Below are positions 3,339 to 20,217 of a DNA stretch of 39,463 bases, in pieces. The DNA lies in assembly GCA_012521815.1 (NCBI GenBank), contig JAAYLR010000012.1, positions 1-39,463 on the forward strand, written 5' to 3'. A program made the translations under genes and the position numbers. Positions within the stretch are counted from its first letter, which is position 1. Every line of letters starts with the position of its first letter. This DNA comes from Acidobacteriota bacterium (GTDB lineage Bacteria > Acidobacteriota > Thermoanaerobaculia > Multivoradales > JAGPDF01). The notes below the pieces were generated by a model. It searched no databases and was not told the origin of the DNA. It was given only the letters and a program-made list of their open reading frames with translations.

Positions 3339-3428
3339 GGGTCGGCGGTCGGCTTGCCGGCGAGAACCGTTCCCGCCGGCACGTCATTCTCGCAGAGGTC
3401 GCCCTCCGCCGGGCGCGAGGCCTCCTGC

Positions 3429-3434
3429 TAAGCT
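3429..3434 (+). promoter_or_regulatory. -10-like element of the gene at 3441
   Basis: The sequence TGcTAAGCT contains an extended -10 motif with TAAGCT as the hexamer, exactly six bases before the GTG start at 3441. No convincing -35 box lies 16-18 bases upstream. With the usual distance from -10 to transcription start, RNA would begin at or next to the start codon, which would make this message leaderless. This is an inference from pattern and position and is one of several such cases in the window. Confidence 0.4.
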
Positions 3435-3440
3435 TCCACG

Positions 3441-5684
3441 GTGCGTTCGCGCTCACTCCGCCTCGTCTTCGCCTCCCTCGCGCTGGCGCTCGTCGCCTTC
3501 CCGCTCGCGCTCCGCAAACCCGGCCCGCCGCTGACCCTCAAGGCGGACGAGCCCGCCTACTACCTGATGGCGCTGTCGATCGCGCGCGATTTCGACCTGC
3601 GCTGCGATACCCGCGATCTCGAGCGGCTCTTCGAGGAGTTCCCCTACGGCCCCACCCACAACCTGATCGTCGGCAGCGACGACGGCTGGCGGACGATCCA
3701 CTTCGCCAAGCCGTACGCCTACTCGTTCTTCGCCGCCCCGTTCGCGGCCGTGGCCGGCGCGCAGGGGATGGTCGCGTTCAACTGGCTCCTCCTGCTCGGG
3801 ATGATCTGGCTCGGCGCCCGCTACCTGGGCCGCTCCAACCCGGGGCCGGTCGCGCTGCTCTTCGCGAGCGGCTTCTTCCTCCTCTCGGCCGGCGTGGCGT
3901 ACACGTTCTGGCTCCACCCCGAGATCTTCATGATGGCGGCGGTGACCGTTTCCCTCTACTTCGGACTGACCGAGCACGAGGGAGAGCGCCCCGAGCGGTG
4001 GTGGCGGCGGCCGCTCGCCTGCCCGGCGCTCCGGCTCGCGCTCTCGGGCGCGGCGCTCACGGTCGCCAGCTACCACAAGCCGGTCTACGCCGCCCTCGCC
4101 CTGCCGGTGCTCTACCGTCTCGCCCGGGGAGCCCGCTGGCGGCATCTCGCCGTCTGGCTCGGGAGCAGCGCCCTCGCCGGCCTGCTCCTCGTGGCCGGCG
4201 CGCTCGCCTGGACGGGCAAGCCGTCCGCCTATTTCGGCCAGGACCGCGCCGGCTTCTCGGTCGATCCTCCCGGCGTCTGGCACCGGCTTCCGGAGCCGGC
4301 CCCGGCCGGGGGCGGAACGCCCGCCGAACCACCGGGCGCGAACGCCTGGGGCTGGATCTTCCGGGCTCCGGAATCGGGGCCCGCCCGCCTCGTCGAAGAC
4401 TTCGGCTACTTCCTCTGCGGGCGCCACACCGGGCTCTTCCCCTATCACCCGTTCACGCTCCTGGCGCTGCTGCTCTTCCTCCTCGGCGGCCGGCGTTCCG
4501 GCGAGCGGTGGGCGCTGCTCGCCGCGCTCGCGTTGGTGATGCTCTTCTTCCTCCTGCAGATCCCTTTCAACTGGCACGGCGGCGGGGGGTTCATCGGCAA
4601 CCGGTACTACGTGGCCGTGGTCCCCGGATTCCTCTTTCTCGTGAACCGGATCGCGCCGCTTGCGCTCCTTCCGCTCGGCTTCGCCGCCGGGGGGTTGCTC
4701 ATCGGCCCCCTCTTCTTCTCGCCGCTCGGGGTGAGCGTCTACTATCCGACCCTCCAGGCGCACGTGCGCAACCGGCCGTTCGATCACCTCCCGTTCGAAC
4801 ACTCGCTGGCGCGCAAGATCCCCGGCTATCGCGGCCAGGTGGTGCGGGATCTCTGGTTCTTCGGCCGCCGGGACGTCTTCTTCCCGCAGCGGGACGAGCT
4901 GTTGGTCAGCGCCGGTCCGCCGGTCGAGATCTGGCTGGCGAGCGAACGGCCGCTCGCGAACGCGGTCTTCGAGCTGCGTTCGCCGCGCCCCGGTCAGAGG
5001 ATCTCGATCTCGGTGGCCGGCGAGCGGCGGACTGTCGAGCTGGCGGCCGACGAGGAGCCGGAGCGGCCGCACCCCATCGAGGTCGACCTGCCCCACGCCA
5101 CCCTGAAGCGCGACGAGGACGGGACGCCGGTCTGGCTCTACCGGATCGTCGTGAGGGCACGGCGCGGAGCCCAGCTGGCGGGAGGCATGGAGGACGACGC
5201 CGAGTTCCAGGTCGGCGCGCGGCTCAGCTACTACGGCAGCCGGGAGGAGGTGGCCGCCGATCTCTACCATGCCGAATGGGGGCCGATCGAGCTGCCGGCC
5301 GAAGTCATCGCGGGCGGCCGGCTCACGCTTCCGGTGACGATCCGCAATGCAAGCAAAGCTCCCTGGCCCGCCTCGGCCGGGGGCCGGGTCCAGCTCTCCT
5401 ACCACTGGCTCGCCCCCGACGGCAGCGTGGAGCTCTGGGAGGGCGAGCGCACCCGCCTGCCGGCCGACCTCGCCCCCGGCGAGCAGGCCGCGCTGCCGAT
5501 GCAGATCGCGGTCCCGAACGTACCGGGGAGCTACGACCTGGTCCTCGAGCCGGTGCGCGAAGGGATCGCCTGGTTCCATGAACGTGGACAGGGCAACACC
5601 CTCCGCCGGCACGTGACCGTCCTCCCCGCTGTCGATCTCTCGGAGGTCACCCAACCCGCCGGGAGTCCCGCCCACCCCGGCTGA
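3441..5684 (+). CDS. GT-C-like membrane glycosyltransferase with C-terminal Ig-like domain (paralogue)
   Basis: A 747-residue membrane protein with a GTG start and no Shine-Dalgarno. It repeats the plan of its divergent neighbour: one N-terminal helix, an acidic loop with D36 and E37 (KADEPAYYLMA), several membrane helices to about residue 440, then a soluble region ending in an Ig-like module near residues 620-740 with TIRNASKAPWP and PGSYDLVLEPVREG. The regions GRHTGLFPYHPF and GGGFIGNRYY have counterparts in the neighbour (GRHTGLLVYFPF, GESFVGNRYF), which shows common ancestry. It probably transfers a lipid-linked sugar at the periplasmic face of the membrane. No substrate can be named. 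Confidence 0.72.
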   Translation: MRSRSLRLVFASLALALVAFPLALRKPGPPLTLKADEPAYYLMALSIARDFDLRCDTRDLERLFEEFPYGPTHNLIVGSDDGWRTIHFAKPYAYSFFAAPFAAVAGAQGMVAFNWLLLLGMIWLGARYLGRSNPGPVALLFASGFFLLSAGVAYTFWLHPEIFMMAAVTVSLYFGLTEHEGERPERWWRRPLACPALRLALSGAALTVASYHKPVYAALALPVLYRLARGARWRHLAVWLGSSALAGLLLVAGALAWTGKPSAYFGQDRAGFSVDPPGVWHRLPEPAPAGGGTPAEPPGANAWGWIFRAPESGPARLVEDFGYFLCGRHTGLFPYHPFTLLALLLFLLGGRRSGERWALLAALALVMLFFLLQIPFNWHGGGGFIGNRYYVAVVPGFLFLVNRIAPLALLPLGFAAGGLLIGPLFFSPLGVSVYYPTLQAHVRNRPFDHLPFEHSLARKIPGYRGQVVRDLWFFGRRDVFFPQRDELLVSAGPPVEIWLASERPLANAVFELRSPRPGQRISISVAGERRTVELAADEEPERPHPIEVDLPHATLKRDEDGTPVWLYRIVVRARRGAQLAGGMEDDAEFQVGARLSYYGSREEVAADLYHAEWGPIELPAEVIAGGRLTLPVTIRNASKAPWPASAGGRVQLSYHWLAPDGSVELWEGERTRLPADLAPGEQAALPMQIAVPNVPGSYDLVLEPVREGIAWFHERGQGNTLRRHVTVLPAVDLSEVTQPAGSPAHPG

Positions 5685-5694
5685 CGAATCAAGC

Positions 5695-5732
5695 GGGAGG
5701 CGCCCCGCTCCGGCGCCTCCCTTCGGAGGTGC
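5695..5732 (+). promoter_or_regulatory. two mutually exclusive hairpins before the S9 peptidase gene
   Basis: A perfect 10-bp stem (5695-5704 with 5712-5721, loop of 7) shares its right arm with the left arm of a second hairpin (5713-5720 with 5725-5732, tetraloop CTTC, one G-T pair). The second hairpin includes the GGAGG ribosome binding site at 5725-5729, four bases before the ATG at 5734. The two structures cannot form together. No T-tract follows, so a simple terminator is less likely than a transcript structure that opens or closes the ribosome site, but chance pairing is possible in DNA this rich in G and C. Confidence 0.4.
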
Positions 5733-5733
5733 C

Positions 5734-6771
5734 ATGCGTATTCCCAGGATCCTCACGCTCACCCTCGTTCTCTTCGGCCTCCTCCTGCAGCGCCCGCAAC
5801 CGGCTCGTGCCGCCGGCGAGGACGACCGCGTCGCGAAGCTCGAACGGGCCGTCGAGAGCCTCTCGTTCGAGCTCGATCAGGTGCGCAAGGCGGTCGACGA
5901 CGTCTTCTGGTTCCAGCGCCTCGGCGACGTCGCCGAGGTGGACAAGGTGACCTACGTCGGCCCGCCGAACCCGCGGGGCGAGGAGACGTACGGCATCGCC
6001 AACGAGCGGCATCCGTTCAAGGTGCATCAGTACGTCTTCGTGCCGAAAGGTCTCGATCGCGCCAGACGCCACCCGCTCATCGTCCTCCCCCACGGCGGCG
6101 TGCACGGCGACTTCGGGACCTACCACGTGCACATCGTGCGCGAGATGGTCGCCAGGGGCTGGGTGGTGATCGCCCCGGAGTACCGGGGCTCGACCGGCTA
6201 CGGCCGCGGCTTCTACGAGGCGATCGACTACGGCGGGCTCGAGGTCGACGACGTCGTCGCCGGCCGCGACTGGGCGGTGGAGACGCTGCCGTTCGTCGAC
6301 GGCAAGCGGGTCGCGATCGTCGGCTGGAGCCACGGCGGGATGATCGCCCTGCTCGCGGTCTTCGACCACCCGGAGAAGTTCGCCGCCGCCTACGCCGGGG
6401 TCCCGGTCTCCGACCTCCTCACCCGGCTCGGCTACCTGACCGAGGAGTACAAGGGGTACTTCTCCGCCGCCCATCACATCGGCAAGAGCCCCTACGAGGC
6501 GGTGGACGAGTACCGCCGGCGCTCGCCGGTCTTCCACGCCGAGAAGCTGCGGACCCCGCTCCTCGTCCACGCGACGACGAACGACCGGGACGTCAACGTC
6601 GTGGAGGTCGAAGGGCTGATCCGCGCGCTCAAGGCGGCCGGCAAGAAGTTCGAATCGAAGATCTACCAGGACGCGCCGGGGGGCCACTCGTTCAACCGGA
6701 TCGACACCCCGTACGCCCGGGAGTCCCGGGAGGAGATCTACCGCTTCCTCGAGCGGTACCTCGGTCGCTGA
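5734..6771 (+). CDS. secreted S9 (prolyl oligopeptidase) family alpha/beta-hydrolase
   Basis: A 345-residue exported hydrolase. A signal peptide covers residues 1-26 (ending ARA), followed by a short heptad-like helix near 30-55. The catalytic alpha/beta-hydrolase domain fills the rest: nucleophile Ser199 in GWSHGG, probable acid Asp284 in NDRDVNV and His318 in PGGHSF, with an oxyanion-type PHGG segment near residues 122-125. The family cleaves short peptides after proline or related residues, or hydrolyses esters. The usual beta-propeller that restricts substrate size is absent; only the coiled helix precedes the catalytic domain. The ATG has a clear GGAGG site four bases upstream that can be hidden in a hairpin. 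Confidence 0.85.
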   Translation: MRIPRILTLTLVLFGLLLQRPQPARAAGEDDRVAKLERAVESLSFELDQVRKAVDDVFWFQRLGDVAEVDKVTYVGPPNPRGEETYGIANERHPFKVHQYVFVPKGLDRARRHPLIVLPHGGVHGDFGTYHVHIVREMVARGWVVIAPEYRGSTGYGRGFYEAIDYGGLEVDDVVAGRDWAVETLPFVDGKRVAIVGWSHGGMIALLAVFDHPEKFAAAYAGVPVSDLLTRLGYLTEEYKGYFSAAHHIGKSPYEAVDEYRRRSPVFHAEKLRTPLLVHATTNDRDVNVVEVEGLIRALKAAGKKFESKIYQDAPGGHSFNRIDTPYARESREEIYRFLERYLGR

Positions 6772-6798
6772 GCGGCGCCGCCGAGCGAGGCCGCTCAG
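6768..6798. terminator. hairpin between convergent genes
   Basis: A 9-bp perfect inverted repeat, CTGAGCGGC at 6768-6776 and GCCGCTCAG at 6790-6798, with a 13-base loop, spans the stop codons of the converging S9 peptidase and SGNH genes. It has no T-tract on either side, so if it ends transcription it probably does so weakly or with help. Position is the main argument. Confidence 0.4.
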
Positions 6799-7799
6799 GG
6801 GACGACCGGCACCCGCTTCCAGCCCTGCCCCGCCGCCAGCTCGCGGGCGGCGAAGACCCAGATCACGAGCCGCTTGCCGGCGAGGCCGTCGCCCCGCCGC
6901 AGGAGGTTGACGCGCGCCGGCGTCCCCCCGGAGCCGCGAACCGCGACGAGGTCCACGGGGAAGCCCCACGCGGCGGCGAGATGGTCGGCGAGCCCGCCGC
7001 CGCGGGCGTGCAGCTCGCCGCCGGCGTGGAAGACGAGCGCGTGGCTGTCACCGAGCAGGAGGACCGGGCTCTCCCGCCACGGCGCGAGCGGTGCCCCGCC
7101 GGAGTCGGTGAAGAGGGTCGCCGGCAGCCGTTCGGCCGGGGGCCGCGGCGCGGGCAGGAGGCGCCCAAGGTCGCCTGCGATCGTCAGCTCGTCTCGCGAG
7201 GCGCGAACCTCCCGTCGCGGCACCGCGGCGAGCCACTCCGGGCGTCCCGCCCGTTCGGCGATCGCCGCCGCCGCCACCGCGATCCCGCGCGGCGACCAGT
7301 GGGTGTCGGTGCGGCAGTAGAGCGGCTCCGCCTCCCGCTCGCGAGCCGCCCGCAGCAGCGGCAGCAGATCGAGGACCGCCACTTCGTGGCGCGCGAGCTC
7401 GGCGTAGAGCGCCGCGAGCGGCCGGGCGAGAGCGTCCGCCTCCCGAACGAGAGCGGCCGGCAGGAGCGGCTCGGGGTAGACGAGCGGCTTCGGCGGAACG
7501 GGCACGAGGAGGAGCTCGCCCCCCGCGCGCTGCACCTGCGCCGCGAAATCGACGATCGCCGGGAGGGGGTCGGCCTCGCCGCCCGCGCCGGGCGAGAGGG
7601 CGGCGAGATCGGGCAGGGTGAGCGCCCGCAGATCGGCAGGGAGATAGAGCCATCCGTCCCGTCCCGCCACCACCGCCTCGCCGCCGGCGAGCCGCTCGGC
7701 GAGCCAGCTGCGCGCGTCCCCTTCGTTTGCCGCACCGCAGGCGAGCACCCCCGCCAGCGGCAGGAGCGCCCCGGCGAGCCATCGGAGCCAACGGTTCAT
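6795..7799 (-). CDS. AlgJ/AlgX-type SGNH acyltransferase-like lipoprotein
   Basis: A 334-residue protein. The ATG at 7799 overlaps the upstream stop (ATGA). The N-terminus has a signal sequence with a possible lipobox (AGVLAC, Cys21), so the mature protein may be anchored by lipid. It has the marks of the AlgX/AlgJ SGNH domain: GRDGWLYL near residue 47, PVPPKPLVYPE, D165-T-H167-W and S252 in LLLGDSHA, matching the Asp-x-His and Ser triad of Pseudomonas AlgX. Those enzymes take acetyl groups from an MBOAT partner and place them on a polysaccharide in the periplasm. The MBOAT lies two genes upstream in the same operon. The acyl acceptor here is unknown. Confidence 0.8.
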   Translation of the reverse strand: MNRWLRWLAGALLPLAGVLACGAANEGDARSWLAERLAGGEAVVAGRDGWLYLPADLRALTLPDLAALSPGAGGEADPLPAIVDFAAQVQRAGGELLLVPVPPKPLVYPEPLLPAALVREADALARPLAALYAELARHEVAVLDLLPLLRAAREREAEPLYCRTDTHWSPRGIAVAAAAIAERAGRPEWLAAVPRREVRASRDELTIAGDLGRLLPAPRPPAERLPATLFTDSGGAPLAPWRESPVLLLGDSHALVFHAGGELHARGGGLADHLAAAWGFPVDLVAVRGSGGTPARVNLLRRGDGLAGKRLVIWVFAARELAAGQGWKRVPVVP

Positions 7800-9418
7800 C
7801 GCACCTCCCCGGCCCAGTAGACGGGCCACGTCCACCACGCCTCGCCGGCGAGCTCGAAACGCTGCACGCTGTCGAGCGCCGCCGCGACCGCCGCCCACGG
7901 TTCGAGGGCGAGCTCCACCTCCTGCCCCGCCCGCAGCCGCGCGAGCGCCGTCGGCGCCCCCTCGTGCCAGACCCGGACGTAGACCACCGCCGGGCCGTCC
8001 GGAAGCTCCACCGCGAGCGCTCCGAGCGCCTCGCGGTACGGTGACTCCCCCGCCGGCGGCGGCGCGACGGCGCGGATCCGTCCCCGCACCCGGAGCGGTA
8101 CCGCCGGCTCGCTCGCTGCCGGCGGCCGGGCGGTCCGGGCTGACCCGCTGGCGAACCCGAGCAGACGCCAGTCGCCCTGCGAGAGCTCCCGGGTGGCGAA
8201 CTCCCAGACCACCGCCCGTACGCCGGCAAGCGGCTCCTCGCCGCGCTCGAGCGCCTGCGCGAGCGCGGCGCGCGCGGCGAGCGCACCGCCGGCATTGCGG
8301 GCGATCCGCCCGACCGGCAGGCCGAGCTCGGCCGCGAGCTGCTCGGCGAGACCGGCCCCCTCCCCCCAGCCGAGGTCGGCGGTCGCGTAGACGTTCGTGA
8401 AGCTGTCGCCGAGGAGGAGCACCGGCGCCCCGCCCGCCGGCCGCCACGGCGCACCGTCGGCCGCCTGGACCACCGGCCGGATCGTGACCTCCTCCAGCGG
8501 ATAGAGCGGCGCCCAGGCGGGCAGGCCGAGGAGGGCGACGCTGTCGCCCCGGCTCCGGACCCGGCTCTCCGTACGGCGCAGCGCGAGCTCAGGGGGAGGC
8601 AGCGGCGCGCTCTCCCGGAGCCGCCGGGCGAGCGCCGCCGCCACCGCCTCCATCGCCGCGGGATGCCAGTGGCTGTCTCCCCGCAGATAGGCCCGCTGCC
8701 CCGTGGCGGCCCGGGCGGCGAGCAGCGGCGCGGGGTCGAAGAGCTCGATCCCGTCGGCGGCGAGCGCGGCGAAGAGGGGCAGCTCGGAGGGGTTCCGGAG
8801 GGGCGGCGGCGGTCCGTGCGCGGCGAGCCCCTCCGGCTCGATCGCCGGCTTGACCGGCACCGGCAGGAGCAGGAGCGGGATCCCCTGTCCGGCGAGGTAG
8901 GCGTGGAGCTCCCCAATCGCCGGTCGCGGATCGGCGACGCGGGAGGCCGTGGGCCGCGCCGCCGCTACCCGATGCCCGCCGCCGCTCGCCGGCCCGGCGA
9001 GGAACGGCGCTCCGGTCAGGTGGTCGACGTCCGCGCGGAAGTAGACCTCGCCGCCCGCTCCCGGATAGGCGCGTTCGTTGCCGGCGCCGAGCAGCCCGGT
9101 CAGGAGCGCCTGCACCGGCGGGCGTACCGCGGTGGCGAGCACCGACTCCCGGTCGATCCGGTCCTCGACCGCCGCGAAGCGCGCGGCGAGCTCGCGGTTC
9201 GCGGCGGGCAGGCCGGCCGGCAGCCGGCCGGCGAACAGCCCGGCGAAGGAGCCGCCATCGGCGAGGAGACCGCCGTGCGCGATCTCGAGCCCCCACCAGA
9301 GGAGCGGCAGCACGATGCAGACGGCGAGCAGGGCCCGTCCGGCCGCCGGCCGCAGGCGGGTGGCGGCCATCTCGGTGAGGGCTTCGCGTTCGCGGGCGGA
9401 GGGGGGGAGGCCGGACAT
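7796..9418 (-). CDS. membrane-anchored AlgJ-type SGNH protein with extra C-terminal domain
   Basis: A 540-residue protein with ATG at 9418, five bases after the MBOAT stop. One membrane helix (about residues 25-46) is followed by an AlgJ-like SGNH domain: GNERAYPGAGG then YFRADVDHLTG, LLPVPVKPAIEPEG, D248-S-H250-W and the nucleophile S339 in LLLGDSFTNVY. By family it should transfer an acyl group to an extracytoplasmic acceptor. It is longer than AlgJ (about 390 residues). The extra C-terminal 100 residues, starting before SPYREAL at 459, resemble the end of the PD40/LamG lipoprotein encoded at the head of this operon. It overlaps the second SGNH gene by four bases. Confidence 0.82.
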   Translation of the reverse strand: MSGLPPSAREREALTEMAATRLRPAAGRALLAVCIVLPLLWWGLEIAHGGLLADGGSFAGLFAGRLPAGLPAANRELAARFAAVEDRIDRESVLATAVRPPVQALLTGLLGAGNERAYPGAGGEVYFRADVDHLTGAPFLAGPASGGGHRVAAARPTASRVADPRPAIGELHAYLAGQGIPLLLLPVPVKPAIEPEGLAAHGPPPPLRNPSELPLFAALAADGIELFDPAPLLAARAATGQRAYLRGDSHWHPAAMEAVAAALARRLRESAPLPPPELALRRTESRVRSRGDSVALLGLPAWAPLYPLEEVTIRPVVQAADGAPWRPAGGAPVLLLGDSFTNVYATADLGWGEGAGLAEQLAAELGLPVGRIARNAGGALAARAALAQALERGEEPLAGVRAVVWEFATRELSQGDWRLLGFASGSARTARPPAASEPAVPLRVRGRIRAVAPPPAGESPYREALGALAVELPDGPAVVYVRVWHEGAPTALARLRAGQEVELALEPWAAVAAALDSVQRFELAGEAWWTWPVYWAGEVR

Positions 9419-9423
9419 CGGGC

Positions 9424-10920
9424 TCAGAAGATGAAGTAGATGAACGGGTTGAACTCCTGCGCCGCGAGCGCGGCGAGCGCCGCGGCGAGCAGGAGGGCGG
9501 CGAGCGCCGCGCGGGGCCAGGAGACGATCCGGGTCCACGTCCAGGCCGGTGGCGCGCCCCAGACCACGGCCGCTGCCACGCCGAGCACGAGCAGGTGGTA
9601 CGGGGTCCGCACGAGACCCGGGATCAGCGCCGCGCCCGCCACCGGCTCGCCGGCTCCGAAGAGCCAGCCGTAGTAGGTGCGCGCCGCCGGGAGGTCGCCG
9701 GCGCGGAAGAGGACCCAGGTGAGGAGGACGACGGCGAAGGTCACCCCGACCCGCAGCTCCCGCCGCAGGCGCAGGAGCGGCGAGCGCCGCCCGAGCCCCC
9801 GCTCGCCGACCAGCAGGAGGCCGTGCACCGTGCCCCAGGCGACGAAGTTCCAGGCGGCCCCGTGCCAGAGCCCGGCGAGGGTCATCGTCACGAGCGTCGC
9901 CACCGCGTAGGTCAGGTACGCCTCCCGCCGCGCCGGCAGCGCGAAGCGGTCGAGCCGCCGCCCGGTCGCCCAGGCCAGCGGCAGGAAGAGGTAGTCGCGC
10001 AGGAAGGTGGAGAGCGAGAGGTGCCAGCGGCGCCAGAAGTCGGCGATCGAATCGGCCCGGTACGGGGAGTCGAAGTTCTTCGGGAAGGCGAAGCCGAGCA
10101 TCAGCCCGAGGCCGATCGCCATGTCGGAGTAGCCGGAGAAGTCGAAGTAGATCTGGAAGGCGTAGGCGAAGAGCCCCGTCCAGGCGTCGAGCGGACTCGC
10201 CCACGAGGCGTCGAAGACGAGATCCGCGACCTTGCCGCACGGGTTGGCGAGGAGCACCTTCTTCGCCAGGCCGACGGCGACGAACGCCGCGCCGCGGGAG
10301 AGCTTCGCGAGCGTGTGGGTGCGCTCCCGCAGCTGGTCGGCGACCTCCGAGAAGCGGATGATCGGCCCCGCCACGAGCTGCGGGAACATCGAGACGTAGC
10401 AGGCGAAGTCGACGAACGACGCGAGGGCGCGCGCGTCGCCGCGATAGACGTCGATCGTGTAGCTGAGCGACTGGAAAGTGTAAAAGCTGATCCCGAGCGG
10501 GAGCGCGACCCGGAGCGTCGTGGCGATCGCCGCCTCCGGGATCCCGAGGGCGCCGGCGAGCAGGTTCCAGTTCGTGACCGCGAAGTCGAAGTATTTGAAG
10601 AAGCCGAGCAGCGAGAGGTTGGTGAGGAGCGAGAGCCCGAGCGCGACCCGCTGCCGGCGGCTCCGCGCCCCGCCGCGTGGAAGCGGCGGCGCCTCGCCGG
10701 CACCGCGCCCCGGCCGGTGGCCGGCGATGACGAGCGCCGCGACGTAGTCGACGGCGGTGGAGGTCAGCAGCAGCAGGCAGAAGGCCGGGTTCGTCCAGCC
10801 GTAGAAGAGGTAGGAGAGGAGCGCCAGCGCCCCGTGCCGGGCCTTTCGGGGCAGCGCGTAGTAGAGGCCGAGCGCGAGCGGCGCGAAGACGAAGATGAAG
10901 AGGTGGGAGCTGAAGACCAC
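9424..10920 (-). CDS. AlgI-type MBOAT O-acyltransferase
   Basis: A 498-residue polytopic membrane protein of the membrane-bound O-acyltransferase family, close to AlgI in length and pattern. It starts FSSHLFIFVFAP after a GTG with a GGAG site about nine bases upstream. The family marks are visible: SYLFYGWTNP, ISFYTFQSLSYTIDVYRG, YFDFSGYSDMAIGLGLMLG, PYRADSIADFWRRWHLS, and LAGLWHGAAWNF with the invariant catalytic His353. AlgI-type proteins move acetyl or another acyl group from a cytoplasmic donor across the membrane to a periplasmic SGNH partner. Two such partners follow directly. The gene lies three bases after the PD40/LamG gene. Confidence 0.94.
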   Translation of the reverse strand: MVFSSHLFIFVFAPLALGLYYALPRKARHGALALLSYLFYGWTNPAFCLLLLTSTAVDYVAALVIAGHRPGRGAGEAPPLPRGGARSRRQRVALGLSLLTNLSLLGFFKYFDFAVTNWNLLAGALGIPEAAIATTLRVALPLGISFYTFQSLSYTIDVYRGDARALASFVDFACYVSMFPQLVAGPIIRFSEVADQLRERTHTLAKLSRGAAFVAVGLAKKVLLANPCGKVADLVFDASWASPLDAWTGLFAYAFQIYFDFSGYSDMAIGLGLMLGFAFPKNFDSPYRADSIADFWRRWHLSLSTFLRDYLFLPLAWATGRRLDRFALPARREAYLTYAVATLVTMTLAGLWHGAAWNFVAWGTVHGLLLVGERGLGRRSPLLRLRRELRVGVTFAVVLLTWVLFRAGDLPAARTYYGWLFGAGEPVAGAALIPGLVRTPYHLLVLGVAAAVVWGAPPAWTWTRIVSWPRAALAALLLAAALAALAAQEFNPFIYFIF

Positions 10921-10923
10921 CCG

Positions 10924-13095
10924 TCACTCTCCGGCGCCGGCGGGAGGCGTTCCGAGGTCGAGTCCGAGATCGAGCCCGAGATCGAGATAGAACGGCTGCT
11001 CCCACGCCGCCGGCAGGGTGTCGGCGAGGAAGAGGCTCTGCGCCCGCAACTCCTCGGCGAACGGCCCGAGCCGCAGGACGAACCGCTCCCCCGGCCGGGC
11101 CCCGGCAGCCGGGAGCCGCTCGCCGGCGAGGAGGGCGTAGCGCGCCACGCGGATCCGTCCCGCCGGGAGCTCGCCCGCAAGGACACGGACCACCTCGAAC
11201 TCCTGCACCAGGAGCGCCTCCCGGTACGGGGAGATCTCGGCGAGGGCGGGGGCGGTGGAGGTGGCGAGGAGCCGCAGCTCGGCGATGAGCGGCGGCGCGG
11301 GCGCGGGGCGCTCGGCCCGGCGCTGACGATCGCTCGCGGCGAGCGTCGCCGCGCTCTCGGCACGGGCGCCGATCCGGAGGCTTTCCACCCAGCCCCGCCA
11401 CCGCTCCGGGCTCCGCTCCTCGCCGCCCACGGCGAAATGGACCGCGCGCCACGGGAAGAAATCGCCCGGCACGAGCTGCTCGGTGAGGTACGGGACGCCG
11501 TCGAGGTACGACGAGAGCCGCCCCGGCGTGAAGGTGACCGCGAGGCGCACCGGCCGGCCGGCGGCAAGCCGCCCGACCTCGACCGGAGCGCCGGCGGGAG
11601 CGGTATCGGAGGTCCGCAGGTGGAGCTGGAGGCTCTCCCCCTCCTGGTACAGCGTGAAGCTGCGGCTCCCCGGAGCGTTGGCGAGGGCGACGATCGGTCC
11701 CCCGCTGCCGGAGGCGACCGACCACGGCTCGATCGCGAGCTCGAGCGTCAGCTCGTTGGTCGCCATGAGCGCCCCGTTGAGCTCTTCGGCGAGGGCGGGA
11801 GCGAGGGTGAACCGCCCGCCGGCGAGTGCCATCCGGCCGCTGCCGTCGAACCAGGCCCACCCTTCGGAAGTGAAGAGATCGGCTGCGGCGAACGGTTCAC
11901 CCTCCCGCCAGCCGCGGCCGACCGTGTCGGCGTCGGGCCAGAGGAGGCGGAGCGCCTCCTCGCTCACCGGCCACCGCTCGGCCGGGAGCGGCGGGCTCGC
12001 CGCCCGGGGCGCCGGCCGGCGGGCGCCGGTCTCGCCCGCCCGGTGCCCGGCCGGCGGCGACGCGAGCCAGAGGTCGGGGAAGCGGTCGACGGCCGGATCG
12101 TCGGTGAGCCGGACCACCGGCCCCACGGGTTCGAGCGTCTCCGGATCGGTGGCAACCGCGAAGATCTCGTAGTCGGCGGTGAAGTGGTCGTGCTCGCCGC
12201 GGCTCGCGGCGAAGGCGAGCGCCGCTCCGTCCCGCGTGGGGTTCGGGAAGTAGAGGTAGCCGAAGCCGTCGATGGTCCGCGGGTCGTTCCGCGCGAGGAG
12301 CGTCGTCTGCCTGCGGCTCTCGAGATCGAGCCGCGCGATCGGGCCCCCCGCCCCGGCGCTCCAGACGCCCCAGCGCCCGTCCTGCGAGAAGACGGGCTGG
12401 CAGCCGCCGAGCCGCGGCGCCGTCTCGATCCGGCGCGTGGCGGCGTCGTAACGGGAGAAGGTCGGATCGCCGGTGGTGGCGAACCGCCCCGTCGGGTCGA
12501 TGAGCCAGCCGAACTCCGCGCGCGGCTCGGCGGTCAGCCGTTCGCGCTCGCCGCTCGCGAGATCGAGCCGGACGGTGTACCCCTCCCCGTCGATCAGCAC
12601 CACCGCCCCGTTCCCCCACCAGACGGCGGCCCGGTGCTCGGCGTAGGTCCGCGCCCGGGGGGCGAGGGTGCGGGTGGCGCCGGTGGCGAGGTCGACGAGC
12701 CGCAGCTCGCCGGTCGCCCGGCCATCCTCGTATCCGGCCCGGCCCGCGGGCAGGCTCAGGTAGACGAGACGGCTCCCGTCCGGCGAGAAGAGCGGGCAGC
12801 AGTGGTCGCGATCCGGCTCGTCGGGCGAGAGCTGCCGGGGCTCGGCCGCCGCGAGATCGCGCAGGAAGATCCGGAACTCTCCGGTACGGTTCGACTCCCA
12901 GGCGACCTGCCCCGCGCCGAGGAGCACCGCCGGCGCAGCGGGCGTCACCCCTTCCTGCGCCGGTACCCGGGCACAGCCGAGACCGAGGAAGAGCGGGAGC
13001 AGAGACCACCAGCGCGAAGACAGTCGGATACCTCCTGCCACCGGAGCGGCGTCATCCCATCCTACGTGTCCCGGCGCCGCTACGCGGATGGGCAC
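10924..13095 (-). CDS. PD40 beta-propeller / LamG-like lipoprotein at head of acylation operon
   Basis: About 700 residues. TolB/PD40-type propeller repeats occupy roughly residues 60-340 (FSPDGSRLVYLSL, FSQDGRWGVWS and YLYFPNPTRDGAALAFAASR fit the family). A LamG or concanavalin A-like domain follows at about 405-585 (SYLDGVPYL), and the last 90 residues, from SPYREAL at 622, resemble the C-terminus of the SGNH protein two genes downstream. The protein ends in a small DLGL repeat. The start is uncertain: GTG at 13095 is the longest and GTG at 13041 is possible. CTG at 13023 follows a strong AGGAGG by seven bases and gives an ideal lipoprotein signal (SSRWWSLLPLFLGLGC). It may bind the glycan that the downstream enzymes modify. 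Confidence 0.75.
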   Translation of the reverse strand: MPIRVAAPGHVGWDDAAPVAGGIRLSSRWWSLLPLFLGLGCARVPAQEGVTPAAPAVLLGAGQVAWESNRTGEFRIFLRDLAAAEPRQLSPDEPDRDHCCPLFSPDGSRLVYLSLPAGRAGYEDGRATGELRLVDLATGATRTLAPRARTYAEHRAAVWWGNGAVVLIDGEGYTVRLDLASGERERLTAEPRAEFGWLIDPTGRFATTGDPTFSRYDAATRRIETAPRLGGCQPVFSQDGRWGVWSAGAGGPIARLDLESRRQTTLLARNDPRTIDGFGYLYFPNPTRDGAALAFAASRGEHDHFTADYEIFAVATDPETLEPVGPVVRLTDDPAVDRFPDLWLASPPAGHRAGETGARRPAPRAASPPLPAERWPVSEEALRLLWPDADTVGRGWREGEPFAAADLFTSEGWAWFDGSGRMALAGGRFTLAPALAEELNGALMATNELTLELAIEPWSVASGSGGPIVALANAPGSRSFTLYQEGESLQLHLRTSDTAPAGAPVEVGRLAAGRPVRLAVTFTPGRLSSYLDGVPYLTEQLVPGDFFPWRAVHFAVGGEERSPERWRGWVESLRIGARAESAATLAASDRQRRAERPAPAPPLIAELRLLATSTAPALAEISPYREALLVQEFEVVRVLAGELPAGRIRVARYALLAGERLPAAGARPGERFVLRLGPFAEELRAQSLFLADTLPAAWEQPFYLDLGLDLGLDLGTPPAGAGE

Positions 13096-13143: not shown

Positions 13144-14574
13144 ATGACCGCGCCCGACGCGACCGCCCGCGGGCTGCTCCGCTCCTCGAGCGCCGCGACC
13201 CTCGCCCAGATCTGGCGGATGGGGCTCCTCCTCGGGACGAACATCGTCCTCCGCCGGCTCCTCCCCGCCGGCGAATGGGGGATCTGGACCTGGGCCGAGT
13301 CGGTCTTCCTGATCCTCGCCACGGTGCGCGATCTCGGGATGCCGAGCCACGTCGTGCGGCTGCGCCCCTCGCCGTTCGGCGCGCTCCTCGCCGTCGAAGC
13401 GATCTGGGGAGCGCTGCTCGCCACCGGGGTCGCCACGGCCGCGCCGCTGCTCGCCCGCCTCTTCAGCGATCCGGAGCCGGCGGTGGTGCCGGTGCTCCGG
13501 GTGCTCGTCGTCTATCTCCTTCTCGAGGGGCTGGCGGCGGTGCCGCTGACCTATCTCGAAGCCGAGCTGCAGGTGCAGCGATCGCTGTTCCCCGAGCTGC
13601 TGCGGGGCATCACCTACTGCGCCGTGACCTTCACGCTCGCGCTTCGCGGCCAGGGCGTCTGGAGCATCGTCTGGGGACAGATCGCGGCGGTGAGCGTCTA
13701 CGCCGCCGCCCTCTGGCTCGCCACCCGGCGGGAGATGCGGCTGCGCTCGGTTCCCGCGAACCGGTTCCCGGCGCTCGTGCGCGACGCCCTGCCGGTCGGC
13801 AGCGTCTGGCTCCTCCAGATCGCCGTCCTCTACCTCGACAGCCTGATCGTCGGCTGGCGGTTCGACCAGGTCACGGTCGGCGAGTACGGCTTCGCGCTGC
13901 TCTGCGCCCTGCTCGCCACCCGGGTGATGCAGCAGCCGGTGGCGCGGGCCCTCTACCCCGCTTTCGTCGCCCTCCGCGACGATCCCCGGCGGAAGTTCGA
14001 GGCGTACCGGCTCGGCACGCTCGTCCTCGCGGCGCTCGAGATCCCCGCCGCCGCGCTGCTCGCGGTCAACGCCGACCTCGCGGTGCGCCTGCTCGGCGGC
14101 ACGCAGTGGGTGGCCGCCCCCGGTTTCCTGCGGGTCCTCGCCTTCGCGCCGCTCGTCGACCTCTTCGGGCGCTTCGGCGGCGAGCTGCTCATCGCCCTCC
14201 ACCGCGACCGGGTGCGGGTCGCCTCGCTCGTCGCGAACCTCTTCTCGATCGGCGCCGCCGGCCTCCTCTTCACCGGCTGGTTCGGCCCCGCGGGGATGGC
14301 CTGGGCCCGCTACCTGCCGCTCGGAGCGCTGATCGTCGCCTGGGCGGTCCACCGGATCGACCCGGCCGGCTTCCGTCGCCTCGCTACCGATCTCGGCGGG
14401 ATCGTGCTCGTGACGGCGCCCCTCTTCGCGGCCGTCCGGGCGCTCGGGCCGGAGGCACCGTGGCCGCGCCTCGGCCTCTCGCTCGCCGCCGCCGCGGGCT
14501 CCCTCGGGACGAGCTGGTGGCGCTTCGGCGCCGATTTCCGTTCGTTCTTCGGCCGGCCGGCGAGCGCTCAGTAG
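13144..14574 (+). CDS. Wzx-like polysaccharide/lipid-linked oligosaccharide flippase
   Basis: A 476-residue protein that is almost entirely hydrophobic helices (about 12 to 14), opening with an amphipathic region and LRSSSAATLAQIWRMGLLLG, as in the Wzx / RfbX / MurJ-like polysaccharide transport superfamily. Such proteins flip undecaprenyl-linked glycan units from the cytoplasmic to the periplasmic face of the inner membrane. Its neighbours, which include a methyltransferase, epimerases and glycosyltransferases, support a surface-polysaccharide role. No Wzy polymerase or chain-length protein is found in the window, so the polymer may be short or other genes may lie elsewhere. It converges with the methyltransferase gene, overlapping by seven bases. 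Confidence 0.85.
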   Translation: MTAPDATARGLLRSSSAATLAQIWRMGLLLGTNIVLRRLLPAGEWGIWTWAESVFLILATVRDLGMPSHVVRLRPSPFGALLAVEAIWGALLATGVATAAPLLARLFSDPEPAVVPVLRVLVVYLLLEGLAAVPLTYLEAELQVQRSLFPELLRGITYCAVTFTLALRGQGVWSIVWGQIAAVSVYAAALWLATRREMRLRSVPANRFPALVRDALPVGSVWLLQIAVLYLDSLIVGWRFDQVTVGEYGFALLCALLATRVMQQPVARALYPAFVALRDDPRRKFEAYRLGTLVLAALEIPAAALLAVNADLAVRLLGGTQWVAAPGFLRVLAFAPLVDLFGRFGGELLIALHRDRVRVASLVANLFSIGAAGLLFTGWFGPAGMAWARYLPLGALIVAWAVHRIDPAGFRRLATDLGGIVLVTAPLFAAVRALGPEAPWPRLGLSLAAAAGSLGTSWWRFGADFRSFFGRPASAQ

Positions 14575-15470
14575 CGCACGACCACCGGCGGCAGCCGCCG
14601 GGGCCGGAGGCGCAGCAGCCGCGCCCGGAAACACTTGAGAGAGCGTTGCCACGCGGGCGGCGGTGCCACCCCCGGCGCGCCCGCACCGGCGGCTGCCGGC
14701 TCCTCCGCCCGCGCCGCGTGGAAACGGGCGAAGTAGCTCTGCTGGGGGATCCGGTCGCCCGTCGCCCCCGCTACCTTCGTCGCCGCCACGAAGAGCCCCA
14801 CCTGCCGCGCCCGGAAGCCGCCGTAGGCGAGGTGGTCGAGGCAGCCGGGCTCGTAGCGGCGGATCGGCCACCGCGGCGAGTCGAAACGGCCGCGCACCCA
14901 GAAGGGAAAGAACTCGAAGAACCACTCCGCGTCGAGCCGCCAGCCGTTGGCGGTGTAGAAGTCGTGGAAGAGCGTCGGGGAGAACATGTAGAAGCCGTGG
15001 TCGACGTGGTTCGTCGACGGTGCCATGCCGTGCACCATCCGTCCTCCGGGCTTCAGGAGCGCGTGGAGGTTGGCGAAGACCCGGGGCAGATGGAAGACGT
15101 GCTGGATCGTCCCCGCCTCGAAGACGGCGTCGAAGCGGCCGGCAAGCCCGGCCGGCAGCGGCTCGTTGAGATCGAGCAGGTGGTCGGGCCGCTCCCAGTC
15201 GGAGACATCGGCGCTCTCGACCTCCGCGAAGCCGAGGAGGCGGAAGAAGGTGCGATCCGAGAGGCAGCCCTGCCGGGCGAGCTCCGGCTGGTGGGAGAGC
15301 TCCACGGGTCCGGGATCCGCGAGTGTGACTTCCTGTTCGGCCGCCCACTCCCGGAGCTCCGCCTCGGTGCAGTAGATCGACATCCGTCCGAGCTCGAGGA
15401 GCCGGCCGGAGAAGGGGTGGCGGCGCGCCTCGTCGAGCAGCAGCCTCGCGGTGCCGCGCGGGATGCCCAT
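14568..15470 (-). CDS. SAM-dependent methyltransferase (class I)
   Basis: A 300-residue protein. The core pattern of a class I methyltransferase is visible: a first strand and loop around LLELGRM, an acidic strand end at DLNEPLP, then FDAVFEAGTIQHVFHLP and LHALLKPGGRMVHGMAPS, which correspond to motifs III and IV. The following NHVDHGFYMFSPTLFHDFY segment is shared by glycan-cluster methyltransferases of unknown acceptor. It probably methylates a sugar or a lipid-linked intermediate. The ATG overlaps the stop of the upstream epimerase (TGATG), so the two form an operon read leftwards. The glycine-rich loop of the SAM site is less canonical than usual. Confidence 0.7.
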   Translation of the reverse strand: MGIPRGTARLLLDEARRHPFSGRLLELGRMSIYCTEAELREWAAEQEVTLADPGPVELSHQPELARQGCLSDRTFFRLLGFAEVESADVSDWERPDHLLDLNEPLPAGLAGRFDAVFEAGTIQHVFHLPRVFANLHALLKPGGRMVHGMAPSTNHVDHGFYMFSPTLFHDFYTANGWRLDAEWFFEFFPFWVRGRFDSPRWPIRRYEPGCLDHLAYGGFRARQVGLFVAATKVAGATGDRIPQQSYFARFHAARAEEPAAAGAGAPGVAPPPAWQRSLKCFRARLLRLRPRRLPPVVVRY

Positions 15471-16369
15471 CAGAGCCTTCCGGCGGCCCGTTCGGCGCGA
15501 TACCAGGCGATGGTGCGGGCGAGCCCTTCGGCGAGCGGGATCCGCGGCCGGAAGCCGGTCTGCGCGGCGGTGGCCTCGACGTCGGCGCGCCGCACCCGCT
15601 CCAGCGGCCGGTCGGCGAGCGCGCCGATCTCGGGCGGCGGCCCTCCGACCATCAGGCAGATCCGCTCCGCGATCTCCCGCACCGTGACGAGCTGGCCGCT
15701 GCCGAGGTCGAACCGGCGCCCTTCGATCCGGGGGGTGCGCGCGAGGGCGAGCAGGCCCGCGGCGACGTCGGCCACGTGGATCCAGTCGACCGGCCGGGTG
15801 CCGCTCGAGAGCTTCGGGGGGCGGCCGGCGAGCGCTTCGAGGATCGAGTATGGGACGACCTTCGCGACGTCCCCCTGCCCCTCGCCGTAGACCATGAAGA
15901 TCCGGGCGGTGACGACCGGCGCGGCGTAGAGCGCGTGGAAGAAGCGGGCGTAGAGCGCCTGCGCCCCCTTCGCCACCGCGTACGGCGAGCCGGCCGGCTC
16001 GTCGGCCTCCGGCTCCTCCATCGAGCCCGCGAGCACGAGCCGCCGGCAGCCGGTCCGCGAGCCCTCGATCAGGATGTTGACCGAGGTCGCGAGGTTGTCC
16101 CGGAAGGCGGGCCCCACGAGCTCGATCCCCCGCCGCCCGGTCACGAGGCTCGCGAGGTGGAAGACCACCTCGGGGCGGGCGGCGGCGAAGACCCGGGAGA
16201 CATCGTCGAGCCGGGCGAGGTCGCCCTGGAGCCAGGTGACCTCGCTGCTCGAGGCGCGCGCCGTGCGGGAGACGGCGAAGATGGCGGCCCCCGCCTCGCG
16301 CAGGTCCGCGAGCAGGCGGGTGCCGAGGAAACCCGAAGCACCGGTGACGAGGACTCTCTGGCCGCGCAT
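15470..16369 (-). CDS. NAD(P)-dependent sugar epimerase/dehydratase (extended SDR)
   Basis: A 299-residue protein with the nucleotide-binding motif GASGFLG at residues 10-16 and the catalytic pair Tyr130 and Lys134 in SPYAVAKG. The rest follows the nucleotide-sugar epimerase/dehydratase pattern (VFHLASLV, RIFMVYGEGQGD, VDWIHVADVAAGL). It should act on a nucleoside-diphosphate sugar in the cytoplasm, by epimerising, dehydrating or reducing it; the precise reaction cannot be told from sequence. The Ser of the usual Ser-Tyr-Lys triad falls in LAGSMEEP. It is divergent from the glycosyltransferase at 16433 and coupled to the methyltransferase downstream. Confidence 0.85.
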   Translation of the reverse strand: MRGQRVLVTGASGFLGTRLLADLREAGAAIFAVSRTARASSSEVTWLQGDLARLDDVSRVFAAARPEVVFHLASLVTGRRGIELVGPAFRDNLATSVNILIEGSRTGCRRLVLAGSMEEPEADEPAGSPYAVAKGAQALYARFFHALYAAPVVTARIFMVYGEGQGDVAKVVPYSILEALAGRPPKLSSGTRPVDWIHVADVAAGLLALARTPRIEGRRFDLGSGQLVTVREIAERICLMVGGPPPEIGALADRPLERVRRADVEATAAQTGFRPRIPLAEGLARTIAWYRAERAAGRL

Positions 16370-16371
16370 CG

Positions 16372-16432
16372 GGCGAGAGGATAGCGCACGACGCCCTCCG
16401 GCGGGGCGCCTGCGATACCATCTCCTCTCGCC
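16372..16432. promoter_or_regulatory. symmetric divergent control region with 10-bp inverted repeat
   Basis: A perfect inverted repeat, GGCGAGAGGA at 16372-16381 and TCCTCTCGCC at 16423-16432, lies next to both divergent start codons (ATG at 16369 on the minus strand and ATG at 16433 on the plus strand). Each gene therefore has CCTCTCGCC just before its start and neither has a Shine-Dalgarno. -10-like hexamers TATCCT (16378-16383, minus) and TACCAT (16416-16421, plus) lie 8 and 11 bases from the starts. The symmetry could be an operator for one regulator or a shared start context. Confidence 0.45.
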
Positions 16433-17635
16433 ATGCACGTGCGCACCTGGCTCGGCCGCTTCCAGCGCCTCGCCGCTCGCCTGGAGCGCCGGGCGCGCCG
16501 GGTGGAGCAGCGCGTCGTGCACCTCGCGCCGGAAGGCCGGCCCGCCGGCCGCGCCCTCCTCTCCTACATCGTCGACCCGTTCCTCCACGGCGACGAGACC
16601 GCCTTGCCGCTCTCCCACACCCACTTCTGGGAGTCGTGGCGGATGGGGCGCACCCTCGTCGAGCTCGGCTTCGCGGTCGATGCGATCCACTGGACGAACA
16701 CCGCCTTCCTCCCCGCCACGGCGTACGATCTCGTCGTCGACGTCCGGCTGAACCTCGAGCGCCTCGCCCCGCTGCTCCCCGGCGCGGTGAAGGTGATGCA
16801 CATCGAGACCTCGCACCCCGCGGTCCACAACCCCGCCCAGCGCCGCCGCCTCGACGAGCTCGCCGAGCGCCGTGGCATCCGCCTCGCACCGTTCAAGATG
16901 CTCGAGGAGAACCGGGCGATCGAACACGCCGACGCCGCCACGGTGCTCGGCAACGAGGTGACGCAGGCGAGCTACCGGTTCGCCGGCCGCCCGCTCTACC
17001 CGGTGCCGATCTCCCAGCCGCTCCTCTGGCCGTTTCCGGAGGCGAAGGCGTTCGCCGACTGCCGCCGGCGCTTCCTCTGGTTCGGCTCCGGCGGGATGGT
17101 CCACAAAGGGCTCGACCGGGTGCTCGAGGTCTTCGCCGGTCTGCCCGAGCTCGAGCTGGCCGTCGTCGGGCCGGTCGACCGGGAACACGCCTTCGTGAAG
17201 GCGTTCCGGCGCGAGCTCTTCGAGACCCCGAACATCGTCTGCCACGGCTGGATGGAGATCGCCTCGCCCGCCTTCCGGGCGCTCGCCGATCGCACCCTCG
17301 CCCTCGTCTACCCCTCCTGCGCCGAGGGGCAGAACGGCGGCGCCGTGACCTGCATGCACGCCGGGCTCCTCCCCGTGCTCTCCCGCGAGAGCGGCCTCGA
17401 TCTCACCGACGAGCGCGGGCGCCTGCTCCTCGACTCCTCGCTCGACGAGATCCGGGCCCGGGTCCTCGAGCTCTCCGAGACGCCCCCCGCGACGCTCGCC
17501 GCGATGGCCCGCCGCTCGTGGGAGTGGGTCCGTGCCCACCACACCCGGGAGCGCTTCGCCACCGCCTGGCGCGACGCGATCGTCGCGATCCTCGGCGCGC
17601 GCCGCCCGGATCTCTCCCTGAGTCTCCCCGACTGA
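16433..17635 (+). CDS. glycosyltransferase, GT-B fold (family 4-like)
   Basis: A 400-residue soluble protein. The C-terminal half carries the GT-B donor domain pattern: FLWFGSGGMVHKGLDRVLEV, ELAVVGPV and VYPSCAEGQNGGAVTCMHAG, near residues 218-310. The usual E-x7-E retaining motif is incomplete: the segment has Glu where expected first but no second Glu, which departs from classical GT4. The N-terminal domain starts with HFWESWRMGRTLVELGF, a common acceptor-domain opening. It should add a sugar to a lipid-linked or protein acceptor in the cytoplasm. It heads a row of closely spaced genes (PIG-L deacetylase, epimerase, cytidylyltransferase). ATG is used without a ribosome binding site. Confidence 0.8.
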   Translation: MHVRTWLGRFQRLAARLERRARRVEQRVVHLAPEGRPAGRALLSYIVDPFLHGDETALPLSHTHFWESWRMGRTLVELGFAVDAIHWTNTAFLPATAYDLVVDVRLNLERLAPLLPGAVKVMHIETSHPAVHNPAQRRRLDELAERRGIRLAPFKMLEENRAIEHADAATVLGNEVTQASYRFAGRPLYPVPISQPLLWPFPEAKAFADCRRRFLWFGSGGMVHKGLDRVLEVFAGLPELELAVVGPVDREHAFVKAFRRELFETPNIVCHGWMEIASPAFRALADRTLALVYPSCAEGQNGGAVTCMHAGLLPVLSRESGLDLTDERGRLLLDSSLDEIRARVLELSETPPATLAAMARRSWEWVRAHHTRERFATAWRDAIVAILGARRPDLSLSLPD

Positions 17636-17643
17636 CGGCTCCG

Positions 17644-18399
17644 GTGCTCGACCTCCTCGTCCTCTCCCCCCACCTCGACGACGCCGCGCTCTCGTGCGGC
17701 GGCACCCTCGCCGCCCGTGCCCGGCGGGGGGAGCGGATCGTGATCGCCACGCTCTTCGCCGCCGACGAACCGGCGACGCCCCCATCCCGGCTCGCCGCCA
17801 ACCTCGCCCGCTGGTGGGGGCTCGCGCCGGGCACGATCATGCGCGCCCGGCGGGAGGAGGACCTCGCGGCCTGCCGGGCGCTCGGCGTCGGAGCGCACCA
17901 CCACGCGCTCCCCGAGGCCCCCTACCGGAGCGATCCCGAAACGGGAGCGCTGCTCTACCCGCGGCTCGGGCAGCTCTTCCCCCGCCGCCCGCCGGTCGAA
18001 CCGGCGACCGCGGCCGCCCTCGACGCCGCGCTCGCCGCGCTGCCCGCGGCCCGTGAGGTCTGGCTCCCCCTCGGCGTCGGCCGCCACGTCGACCACCAGC
18101 TCCTGCGAGCGGCGGCGGAGCGCCGGCTTCCGGCCCCGCGCCGCTACTACGAGGAGTACCCGTATGCCGCCTGGAGCCGGCTCGGGGTCTGGCGCCTGAC
18201 GCGCCCCCGCTCCGCCTGGCGCCATGAGATCGTGCCGCTCGCTCCGGAAGAGTTCGCGGCGCGTCTCGCCGCCATCGGCTGTTACGCCTCCCAGCTCCGG
18301 GCGCTCTTCGGCGGCGCCGATCAGCTCGAGCGGAAGCTGCGCCGCCACGTCCGGCGCCGCGGCGGGGAGCGGCTCTGGCAGCGGCGGGAGGAACGATGA
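17644..18399 (+). CDS. PIG-L/LmbE-family zinc deacetylase
   Basis: A 251-residue protein with GTG start eight bases after the glycosyltransferase stop. The family metal site is clear: His10 and Asp13 in SPHLDDAALSCGG, and His148, Asp150 and His151 in GRHVDHQL. PIG-L family enzymes remove an N-acetyl group from a GlcNAc unit in a lipid- or small-molecule-linked glycan, using zinc. Here, between a glycosyltransferase and sugar-nucleotide genes, it probably deacetylates an amino sugar in the growing glycan. The stop overlaps the next ATG (ATGA). Length is normal for the family. Confidence 0.9.
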   Translation: MLDLLVLSPHLDDAALSCGGTLAARARRGERIVIATLFAADEPATPPSRLAANLARWWGLAPGTIMRARREEDLAACRALGVGAHHHALPEAPYRSDPETGALLYPRLGQLFPRRPPVEPATAAALDAALAALPAAREVWLPLGVGRHVDHQLLRAAAERRLPAPRRYYEEYPYAAWSRLGVWRLTRPRSAWRHEIVPLAPEEFAARLAAIGCYASQLRALFGGADQLERKLRRHVRRRGGERLWQRREER

Positions 18400-19325
18400 G
18401 GATCCTCGTCACCGGCGGCGCCGGCTTCATCGGCAGCCACCTCGTCGATGCCCTCCTCGCCGCGGGGCACGAGGTCGCGGTGCTCGACGACCTCTCGACC
18501 GGCCGCCGGGAGAACCTTCCGGCCGCCGCCCGGCTCCACGTCGCGAGCGTGGCGACGGCCGCCGCCGAAGCGGTCGTGCTCGCCGAACGTCCGGAGGCGA
18601 TCTTCCACCTCGCCGCGCAGGTCGACGCCGCCCGCAGCCTCGCCGAGCCGCTCCTCGACACCGAGGTGAACGTCCTCGGCACGGTGCGCCTGCTCGCTGC
18701 CGCCGCGACGGCCGGCGTTCCGCGCTTCGTCATCGCCTCGAGCGCGGCGGTCTACGGCGATCCCACGGTGTTCCCGACCGTCGAAGCGGAGCCACACCGG
18801 CCGCTCTCGCCGTACGGCATCGCCAAGTCCGCCGCCGAGCGGTACCTCGAGAGCTTCGCGCGCGACCGGGGGCTCACCGGCGTGGCGCTGCGGTTCGCGA
18901 ACGTCTACGGGCCCCGGCAGACCGCCCTCGGCGAGGCCGGCGTGGTGGCGGTCTTCTGCCGGCGGCTCCTCGCCGGTGCCCCGCTCACCATCCACGGCGA
19001 CGGCCGGCAGACACGCGACTTCGTCCACGTCGCGGACGTCGTCGCCGCCTGCCTCGCCGCCCTCGGCGCGCCGTCCGGCGCCTGGCACGTCGCCACCGGC
19101 GTCGAATCCGACATCCTCACGGTGGCGGCCGAGCTGCGCCGCCACCTCGCGCCGGAGGCGCGAATCGTCCATGCCGCCCCCCGGCCGGCCGATCCGCGCC
19201 GCTCCGTTCTCTCCCCCGACCTCGCCGCCGGCCAGCTCGGCTTCCGTGCCCGCATCCCGCTGGCCGCGGGGCTCGAGCGGACCGCCGGCTGGTTCCGCTC
19301 CCACCCGGAAGGAAACGTGCGATGA
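18396..19325 (+). CDS. NAD-dependent nucleotide-sugar epimerase (GalE/RmlB-like SDR)
   Basis: A 309-residue extended short-chain dehydrogenase. The NAD motif GGAGFIG covers residues 7-13 and the catalytic Tyr140 and Lys144 lie in SPYGIAKSAAERY. FHLAAQVDAARSLAEP, FANVYGPRQ and GDGRQTRDFVHVADVV are typical of UDP-glucose 4-epimerases and their relatives. It should interconvert a nucleotide sugar at C4 or a nearby carbon. Downstream and overlapping by four bases is glucose-1-phosphate cytidylyltransferase, so a CDP-sugar is also a possible substrate, although GalE-like enzymes usually use UDP-sugars. It is too short and differs in motif from a typical CDP-glucose 4,6-dehydratase. Confidence 0.88.
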   Translation: MRILVTGGAGFIGSHLVDALLAAGHEVAVLDDLSTGRRENLPAAARLHVASVATAAAEAVVLAERPEAIFHLAAQVDAARSLAEPLLDTEVNVLGTVRLLAAAATAGVPRFVIASSAAVYGDPTVFPTVEAEPHRPLSPYGIAKSAAERYLESFARDRGLTGVALRFANVYGPRQTALGEAGVVAVFCRRLLAGAPLTIHGDGRQTRDFVHVADVVAACLAALGAPSGAWHVATGVESDILTVAAELRRHLAPEARIVHAAPRPADPRRSVLSPDLAAGQLGFRARIPLAAGLERTAGWFRSHPEGNVR

Positions 19326-20134: not shown

Positions 20135-20217
20135 CCGAGGCGCGCTCCGCCGCGCGCGCAGGCGATCCGGATTAGACTCCTGACCGACCCGGGCCGTTCT
20201 TTCGCTGCCGCGACCTC

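Follow-up and report, generated by a model that had tools for sequence, protein, structure and literature searches.

A four-gene putative O-acylation cassette headed by a propeller/lectin-like protein in an acidobacterial genome and in other phyla

Biofilm and cell-wall polymers carry decorations added by MBOAT-SGNH systems, and for only a few of these systems are the acceptor and the manner of its selection known. The stretch of DNA considered here (the window, 39,463 nucleotides) carries a compact set of such genes headed by one for a protein with a propeller and a lectin-like domain, and the question it raises is what a protein of this kind contributes to an acyltransferase cassette and to the choice of its acceptor. 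By kinship with relatives that public records place in Acidobacteriota or Thermoanaerobaculia, the host is a Thermoanaerobaculia-like acidobacterium, with a genome of 2.95 Mb (98.6% complete) in which one MBOAT and two ALGX-family genes are found, all inside the cassette. The four minus-strand genes, termed lead, MBOAT, SGNH1 and SGNH2, lie to the base where an initial annotation had placed them and the tight coupling that it described is exact: 3 bases separate the lead stop from the GTG start of the MBOAT, 5 bases separate the MBOAT stop from the ATG start of SGNH1, and the SGNH1 stop and SGNH2 start overlap in ATGA. GC3 is 0.90-0.97 in all four reading frames and the Pfam matches of all four proteins are above the family cut-offs. 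A promoter scan of the window was empty, although such a scan says little for an organism of this kind. The features are as follows.

10924..13095, minus strand: lead, 723 aa (Pfam, AlphaFold2 model, Foldseek, PDB profile search; the start codon and the lipobox are predicted)
10972..11298, minus strand: C-terminal "PYREAL" domain of the lead, with no Pfam match (found at the C-terminus of complete leads; homology with the extension of SGNH1)
9424..10920, minus strand: AlgI/DltB-type MBOAT, 498 aa, with His353 and a C-terminal FIYFIF containing Tyr495 (PF03062, DltB structures, motif conservation)
7796..9418, minus strand: SGNH1, 540 aa, with an N-terminal membrane anchor, an AlgJ-type SGNH domain and a C-terminal extension (PF16822, AlphaFold2 model, AlgJ fold, triad)
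7799..8101, minus strand: C-terminal extension of SGNH1 (about residues 440-540), OB-like in the model (hmmsearch with the extension profile, 1e-38; model strands)
6795..7799, minus strand: SGNH2, 334 aa, AlgJ/AlgX-type SGNH and predicted lipoprotein (PF16822, AlgJ sequence match)

The acyltransferase core and its class

The MBOAT matches PF03062 (4.7e-25) and DltB structures (7e-31), and its conserved histidine is His353, in LWHGA; NCBIfam yielded a single match, to DltB and below threshold. Its C-terminal end, NPFIYFIF, fits FxYxxF, and all complete MBOATs of the clade have a closely similar tail fitting the motif, the clade being made up of the 27 MBOATs in the host's order with at least 58% identity. 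FxYxxF has been demonstrated to be an acyl-carrying motif in PatA and DltX, and the tyrosine of the PatA shuttle motif is auto-acetylated, an acetylated peptide of such a kind serving as the donor for PatB (PMC12148441). Both SGNH proteins match the ALGX family PF16822 (7.3e-26 for SGNH1 and 2.1e-27 for SGNH2). SGNH1 has a single N-terminal hydrophobic segment (residues 22-49) and a triad of Asp248, His250 and Ser339 that is invariant in the A4 set, and the best PDB fold for its AlphaFold2 model (pLDDT 84) is AlgJ (4o8v, 2.3e-15), PatB1 being weaker (3.5e-6). The triad of SGNH2 is Asp165, His167 and Ser252, its best PDB sequence match is again AlgJ (6e-11), it has no C-terminal module, and a lipobox spotted by eye (VLAC) predicts that it is a lipoprotein. 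The Asp-x-His and Ser motifs are kept in both SGNHs, with the exception of the L101 SGNH2, in which the called gene has no GDS motif.

MBOAT-SGNH extracytoplasmic acyltransferase systems are recognised by an AlgI/DltB-type MBOAT with a conserved histidine, a C-terminal FxYxxF motif on the MBOAT and an SGNH partner with a Ser/Asp/His triad outside the cytoplasm. All of these were found, the location of the SGNHs being predicted from an anchor or a lipobox, and on sequence grounds the cassette is a member of the class that has none of the testable defining features of the alginate, cellulose or peptidoglycan systems. The strong conservation of motifs suggests that its chemistry is acyl transfer, and very probably the cassette exports groups of the acetyl type and attaches them to a polysaccharide at the cell surface.

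The alginate system of Pseudomonas (AlgI-AlgJ-AlgF-AlgX) resembles the cassette in its AlgI-type MBOAT, in the core fold of SGNH1, which is that of AlgJ, and in having two AlgJ/AlgX-family SGNHs per MBOAT, one of them anchored. It had initially been held that two SGNHs for one MBOAT was a departure from alginate acetylation, but this was mistaken: there a single MBOAT, AlgI, already works with both AlgJ and AlgX, the latter being the proposed terminal transferase (PMC4148444), so that the unusual point of the cassette is not its SGNH count. The differences are that the window cassette has no alginate synthase, AlgF, AlgK or AlgE genes, alginate synthase and export genes being absent from among the annotated window genes, and that the lead has no Alg counterpart. 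The carbohydrate-binding module of AlgX gave no match with the SGNH1 extension, which is OB-like with weak matches. Cellulose acetylation by WssFGHI likewise combines an MBOAT with an AlgJ/AlgX-like SGNH, but has a different accessory protein, and the window lacks a cellulose synthase gene. The DltB/DltX/DltD system has a homologous MBOAT and an acyl-Tyr relay to an SGNH-type protein, whereas in the cassette the MBOAT itself bears the shuttle motif, there is no DltX, the SGNHs are of the AlgX family and neither DltA nor DltC is encoded nearby. No description of the gene set was found in the open-access papers searched.

The lead protein and its linkage to the MBOAT

In Pfam the lead matches Laminin_G_3 (1.3e-6) and PD40 (2.9e-4), and its AlphaFold2 model (pLDDT 82) places a lectin-like domain after a TolB-like propeller. 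The layout is a six-bladed TolB-like propeller (about residues 60-345), a ConA-like lectin domain (about 425-585) for which the sequence match is weak, and a new C-terminal domain (about 600-708). The protein fits a relaxed lipobox pattern (LGLGC, Cys41), from which it is predicted to be a lipoprotein; many relatives' leads have a lipobox and some have a membrane anchor. The original description of a PD40/LamG lipoprotein stands, with lipoprotein status as a prediction, but it had overlooked the C-terminal domain held in common with SGNH1 as well as the PKD and SbsB-like Ig domains that most relatives' leads carry between the propeller and the lectin domain, a stretch that is missing from the window's family.

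Across 149 genomes of the host's class, strong lead homologues turned up in six families (f1-f6) of the order to which the host belongs, and a single weaker one lay beyond that order. The gene order lead-MBOAT-SGNH recurs around lead homologues in the order, and a lead is in the same cassette for 25 of the 27 clade MBOATs, one of the other two being without a lead (G047) and the other ending at a contig edge (G053). The view that a propeller/lectin-like lead is part of an AlgI/AlgJ-type O-acylation cassette, which was to be given up if the lead were missing from most relatives with the other genes, is borne out by this count. Viewed from the lead, an MBOAT adjoins it at 35 of about 41 loci with room to judge and is absent at six; the stand-alone leads are L043, L055, L058, L062, L099 and L100, some of which are second copies in cassette-bearing genomes. 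At L040 SGNH1 and the lead are fused in one ORF of 1231 aa with both ALGX and LamG matches, and L089 has the same arrangement, which is strong evidence that the two proteins work together. Chance adjacency of the lead was rejected on the strength of the 25 linked MBOATs and the L040 fusion. The idea that any MBOAT of these genomes has a lead-like neighbour was also rejected: the three lower-identity MBOATs with surroundings that were inspected (44-47%; L115-L117) are without one, and the remaining lower-identity MBOATs are located elsewhere than leads.

Outside the order, a scan of named genomes found the cassette in Phycisphaeraceae, Myxococcota, Verrucomicrobia, Lentisphaeria and Zipacnadia, with more divergent versions in Armatimonadota and Poribacteria. 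The phyla in which the core recurs are Myxococcota, Planctomycetota, Verrucomicrobiota, Lentisphaerota and Armatimonadota; these matches come from metagenome bins, and single phylum labels may be wrong. The cassette is rare in the rest of the Acidobacteriota, with one match outside the class among 396 sampled genomes of the phylum. Variations in layout were also seen. The Armatimonadota and Poribacteria loci L108, L109 and L110 have the order divergent propeller protein, SGNH2-like gene, MBOAT, SGNH1, and at L035 (genome G031, 3299-10865) there is a tandem duplication, lead-MBOAT-SGNH-MBOAT-SGNH, with a single lead gene in front.

A C-terminal domain common to the lead and SGNH1

The lead ends in a domain of about 110 residues with the motif PYREAL, and SGNH1 carries a homologous C-terminal extension. 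The lead domain has no match in Pfam. A single hhalign comparison of the two gave a probability of 98% (E 1.5e-13), and in hmmsearch their profiles cross-match both ways. The model of the SGNH1 extension is OB-like, with weak structural matches to OB-folds (E above 0.1).

The extension is closely tied to the second SGNH, which in the host's order is a minority state found in four of 26 genomes (the window's, G021, G053 and G054). Every one of the 13 judgeable cassettes with SGNH2 has the domain within SGNH1 or adjoining it, against none of about 21 cassettes that lack SGNH2 (P about 1e-9 for a table whose rows are related by descent). Mapped on the MBOAT tree, the four-gene state requires five changes, three of them forced by well supported branches, giving at least three and probably four to six. 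Such repeated joint changes of SGNH2 and the extension are evidence that the two act together. The position of the domain is not fixed: in the Phycisphaeraceae locus L083 (11971-13710) it interrupts the catalytic domain of SGNH1, lying between its Asp-His motif and its Ser motif rather than at the end, and at L108 it is encoded by a small ORF of its own that follows SGNH1.

Mechanism, acceptor and alternative readings

The reading preferred here, and one considered reasonably probable, is that the cassette is a trans-membrane machine, complete in itself, for O-acylating an extracytoplasmic glycan, with the propeller/lectin lipoprotein as a dedicated partner that positions the acceptor. The MBOAT, aided by His353, would take an acyl group, most likely acetyl, from cytoplasmic acyl-CoA and load it onto Tyr495 of the FIYFIF tail, from which it would pass to Ser339 of the membrane-anchored SGNH1. 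In the three-gene form SGNH1 would then transfer it directly to the acceptor, and in the four-gene form, such as that of the window, it would do so through or alongside the lipoprotein SGNH2 (Ser252), in the manner of AlgJ and AlgX in alginate acetylation. The lead may hold or position the acceptor, its C-terminal domain being a likely docking or glycan-contact module. The lectin-like and sialidase/arabinanase-like folds of the lead speak for this scheme, as do the motifs, the linkage and the fusions described above. The stand-alone leads, which may point to an MBOAT-independent use of the protein, and the G047 MBOAT without a lead count against it, and so do the weak sequence match of the lectin-like domain and the lack of conserved nearby genes for the acceptor.

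Where the acceptor is made is another matter. In the window the cassette adjoins polysaccharide genes (13144-22646: flippase, epimerases, PIG-L deacetylase, NTP transferase, GT2, PMT-type), the flippase gene being divergent from the lead and 48 bases away, and it could be that an O-antigen or exopolysaccharide made by these genes is what is acylated, as the initial annotation had suggested. The flanks of the cassette are, however, not conserved across genomes. Among 110 genes flanking 27 other cassettes the commonest families were sulfatases (6) and TPR repeats (5), glycosyltransferase group 1 matches numbered two, no conserved polymer synthase or other fifth gene emerged, and no polymer synthase, cellulose-synthase or flippase family was among the most frequent neighbours. 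As flanks elsewhere are not conserved and glycosyltransferases are rare, the polysaccharide genes are a local feature of the window; the suggestion is weakened accordingly and now appears unlikely. A stand-alone cassette that is not tied to a polymer synthase, and which combines an SGNH with an MBOAT bearing an FxYxxF tail as in PatA, might instead be a PatA/PatB-like system for peptidoglycan O-acetylation with accessory lipoproteins. Both SGNHs are, however, of the ALGX family rather than PatB-type, with AlgJ a better match than PatB1, the four-gene form has two of them, and the described Pat systems have no lectin/propeller lipoprotein, all of which makes peptidoglycan a highly improbable acceptor.

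The other alternatives concern the roles of single components. Instead of serving as a second transferase, SGNH2 might edit or take off the acyl group as an esterase, the four-gene form then being a write-and-erase unit: SGNH proteins are often esterases, AlgJ shows acetylesterase activity in vitro (PMC4148444), and a gain and loss of SGNH2 together with the SGNH1 extension would fit such a unit. Its membership of the AlgX/AlgJ transferase family, and not of a known esterase family, leaves this rather doubtful. That the lead is a glycoside hydrolase or lyase trimming the acceptor, and not a binding or scaffold subunit, is very unlikely; its propeller and lectin-like domain do resemble sialidases and the GH43 arabinanase AbnA, which Foldseek returned along with TolB, but the whole-chain TM-scores were low (0.2-0.3), the propeller alone is nearest to TolB, a non-enzyme, and no glycosidase family in Pfam or NCBIfam matched the lead.

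An extended form of the preferred reading, a positioning lead in an O-acylation machine, can be offered tentatively. The cassette may represent a glycan-acylation system, spread over several phyla and not described before, whose lead is obligate, docks to SGNH1 via the new domain and presents a surface glycan, whilst in the version with a two-SGNH relay a second copy of the domain recruits SGNH2. A partner protein that is kept with its transferase over several phyla, and is also found fused, provides a handle on polymer selection, and the coupling of the new domain with the second SGNH provides a testable idea as to why some systems need two SGNHs, a question posed by AlgJ and AlgX.

Two further features of the surroundings may be recorded. 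Sulfatase-superfamily genes are frequent near the cassette or orphan leads (L036, L037, L039, L043, L045, L052, L055 and L100), and several of them have a Thr where the CxPS motif normally has its Cys and may therefore be something other than sulfatases; as relatives carry 10-58 such genes per genome, and the window's own genome four, no claim is made for them as partners. Beside the cassette in the window are two mutually divergent genes (1185-3338, minus strand, and 3441-5684, plus strand) for homologous large predicted membrane proteins of 717 and 747 aa, which have no Pfam match and homologues of which are found near some other leads.
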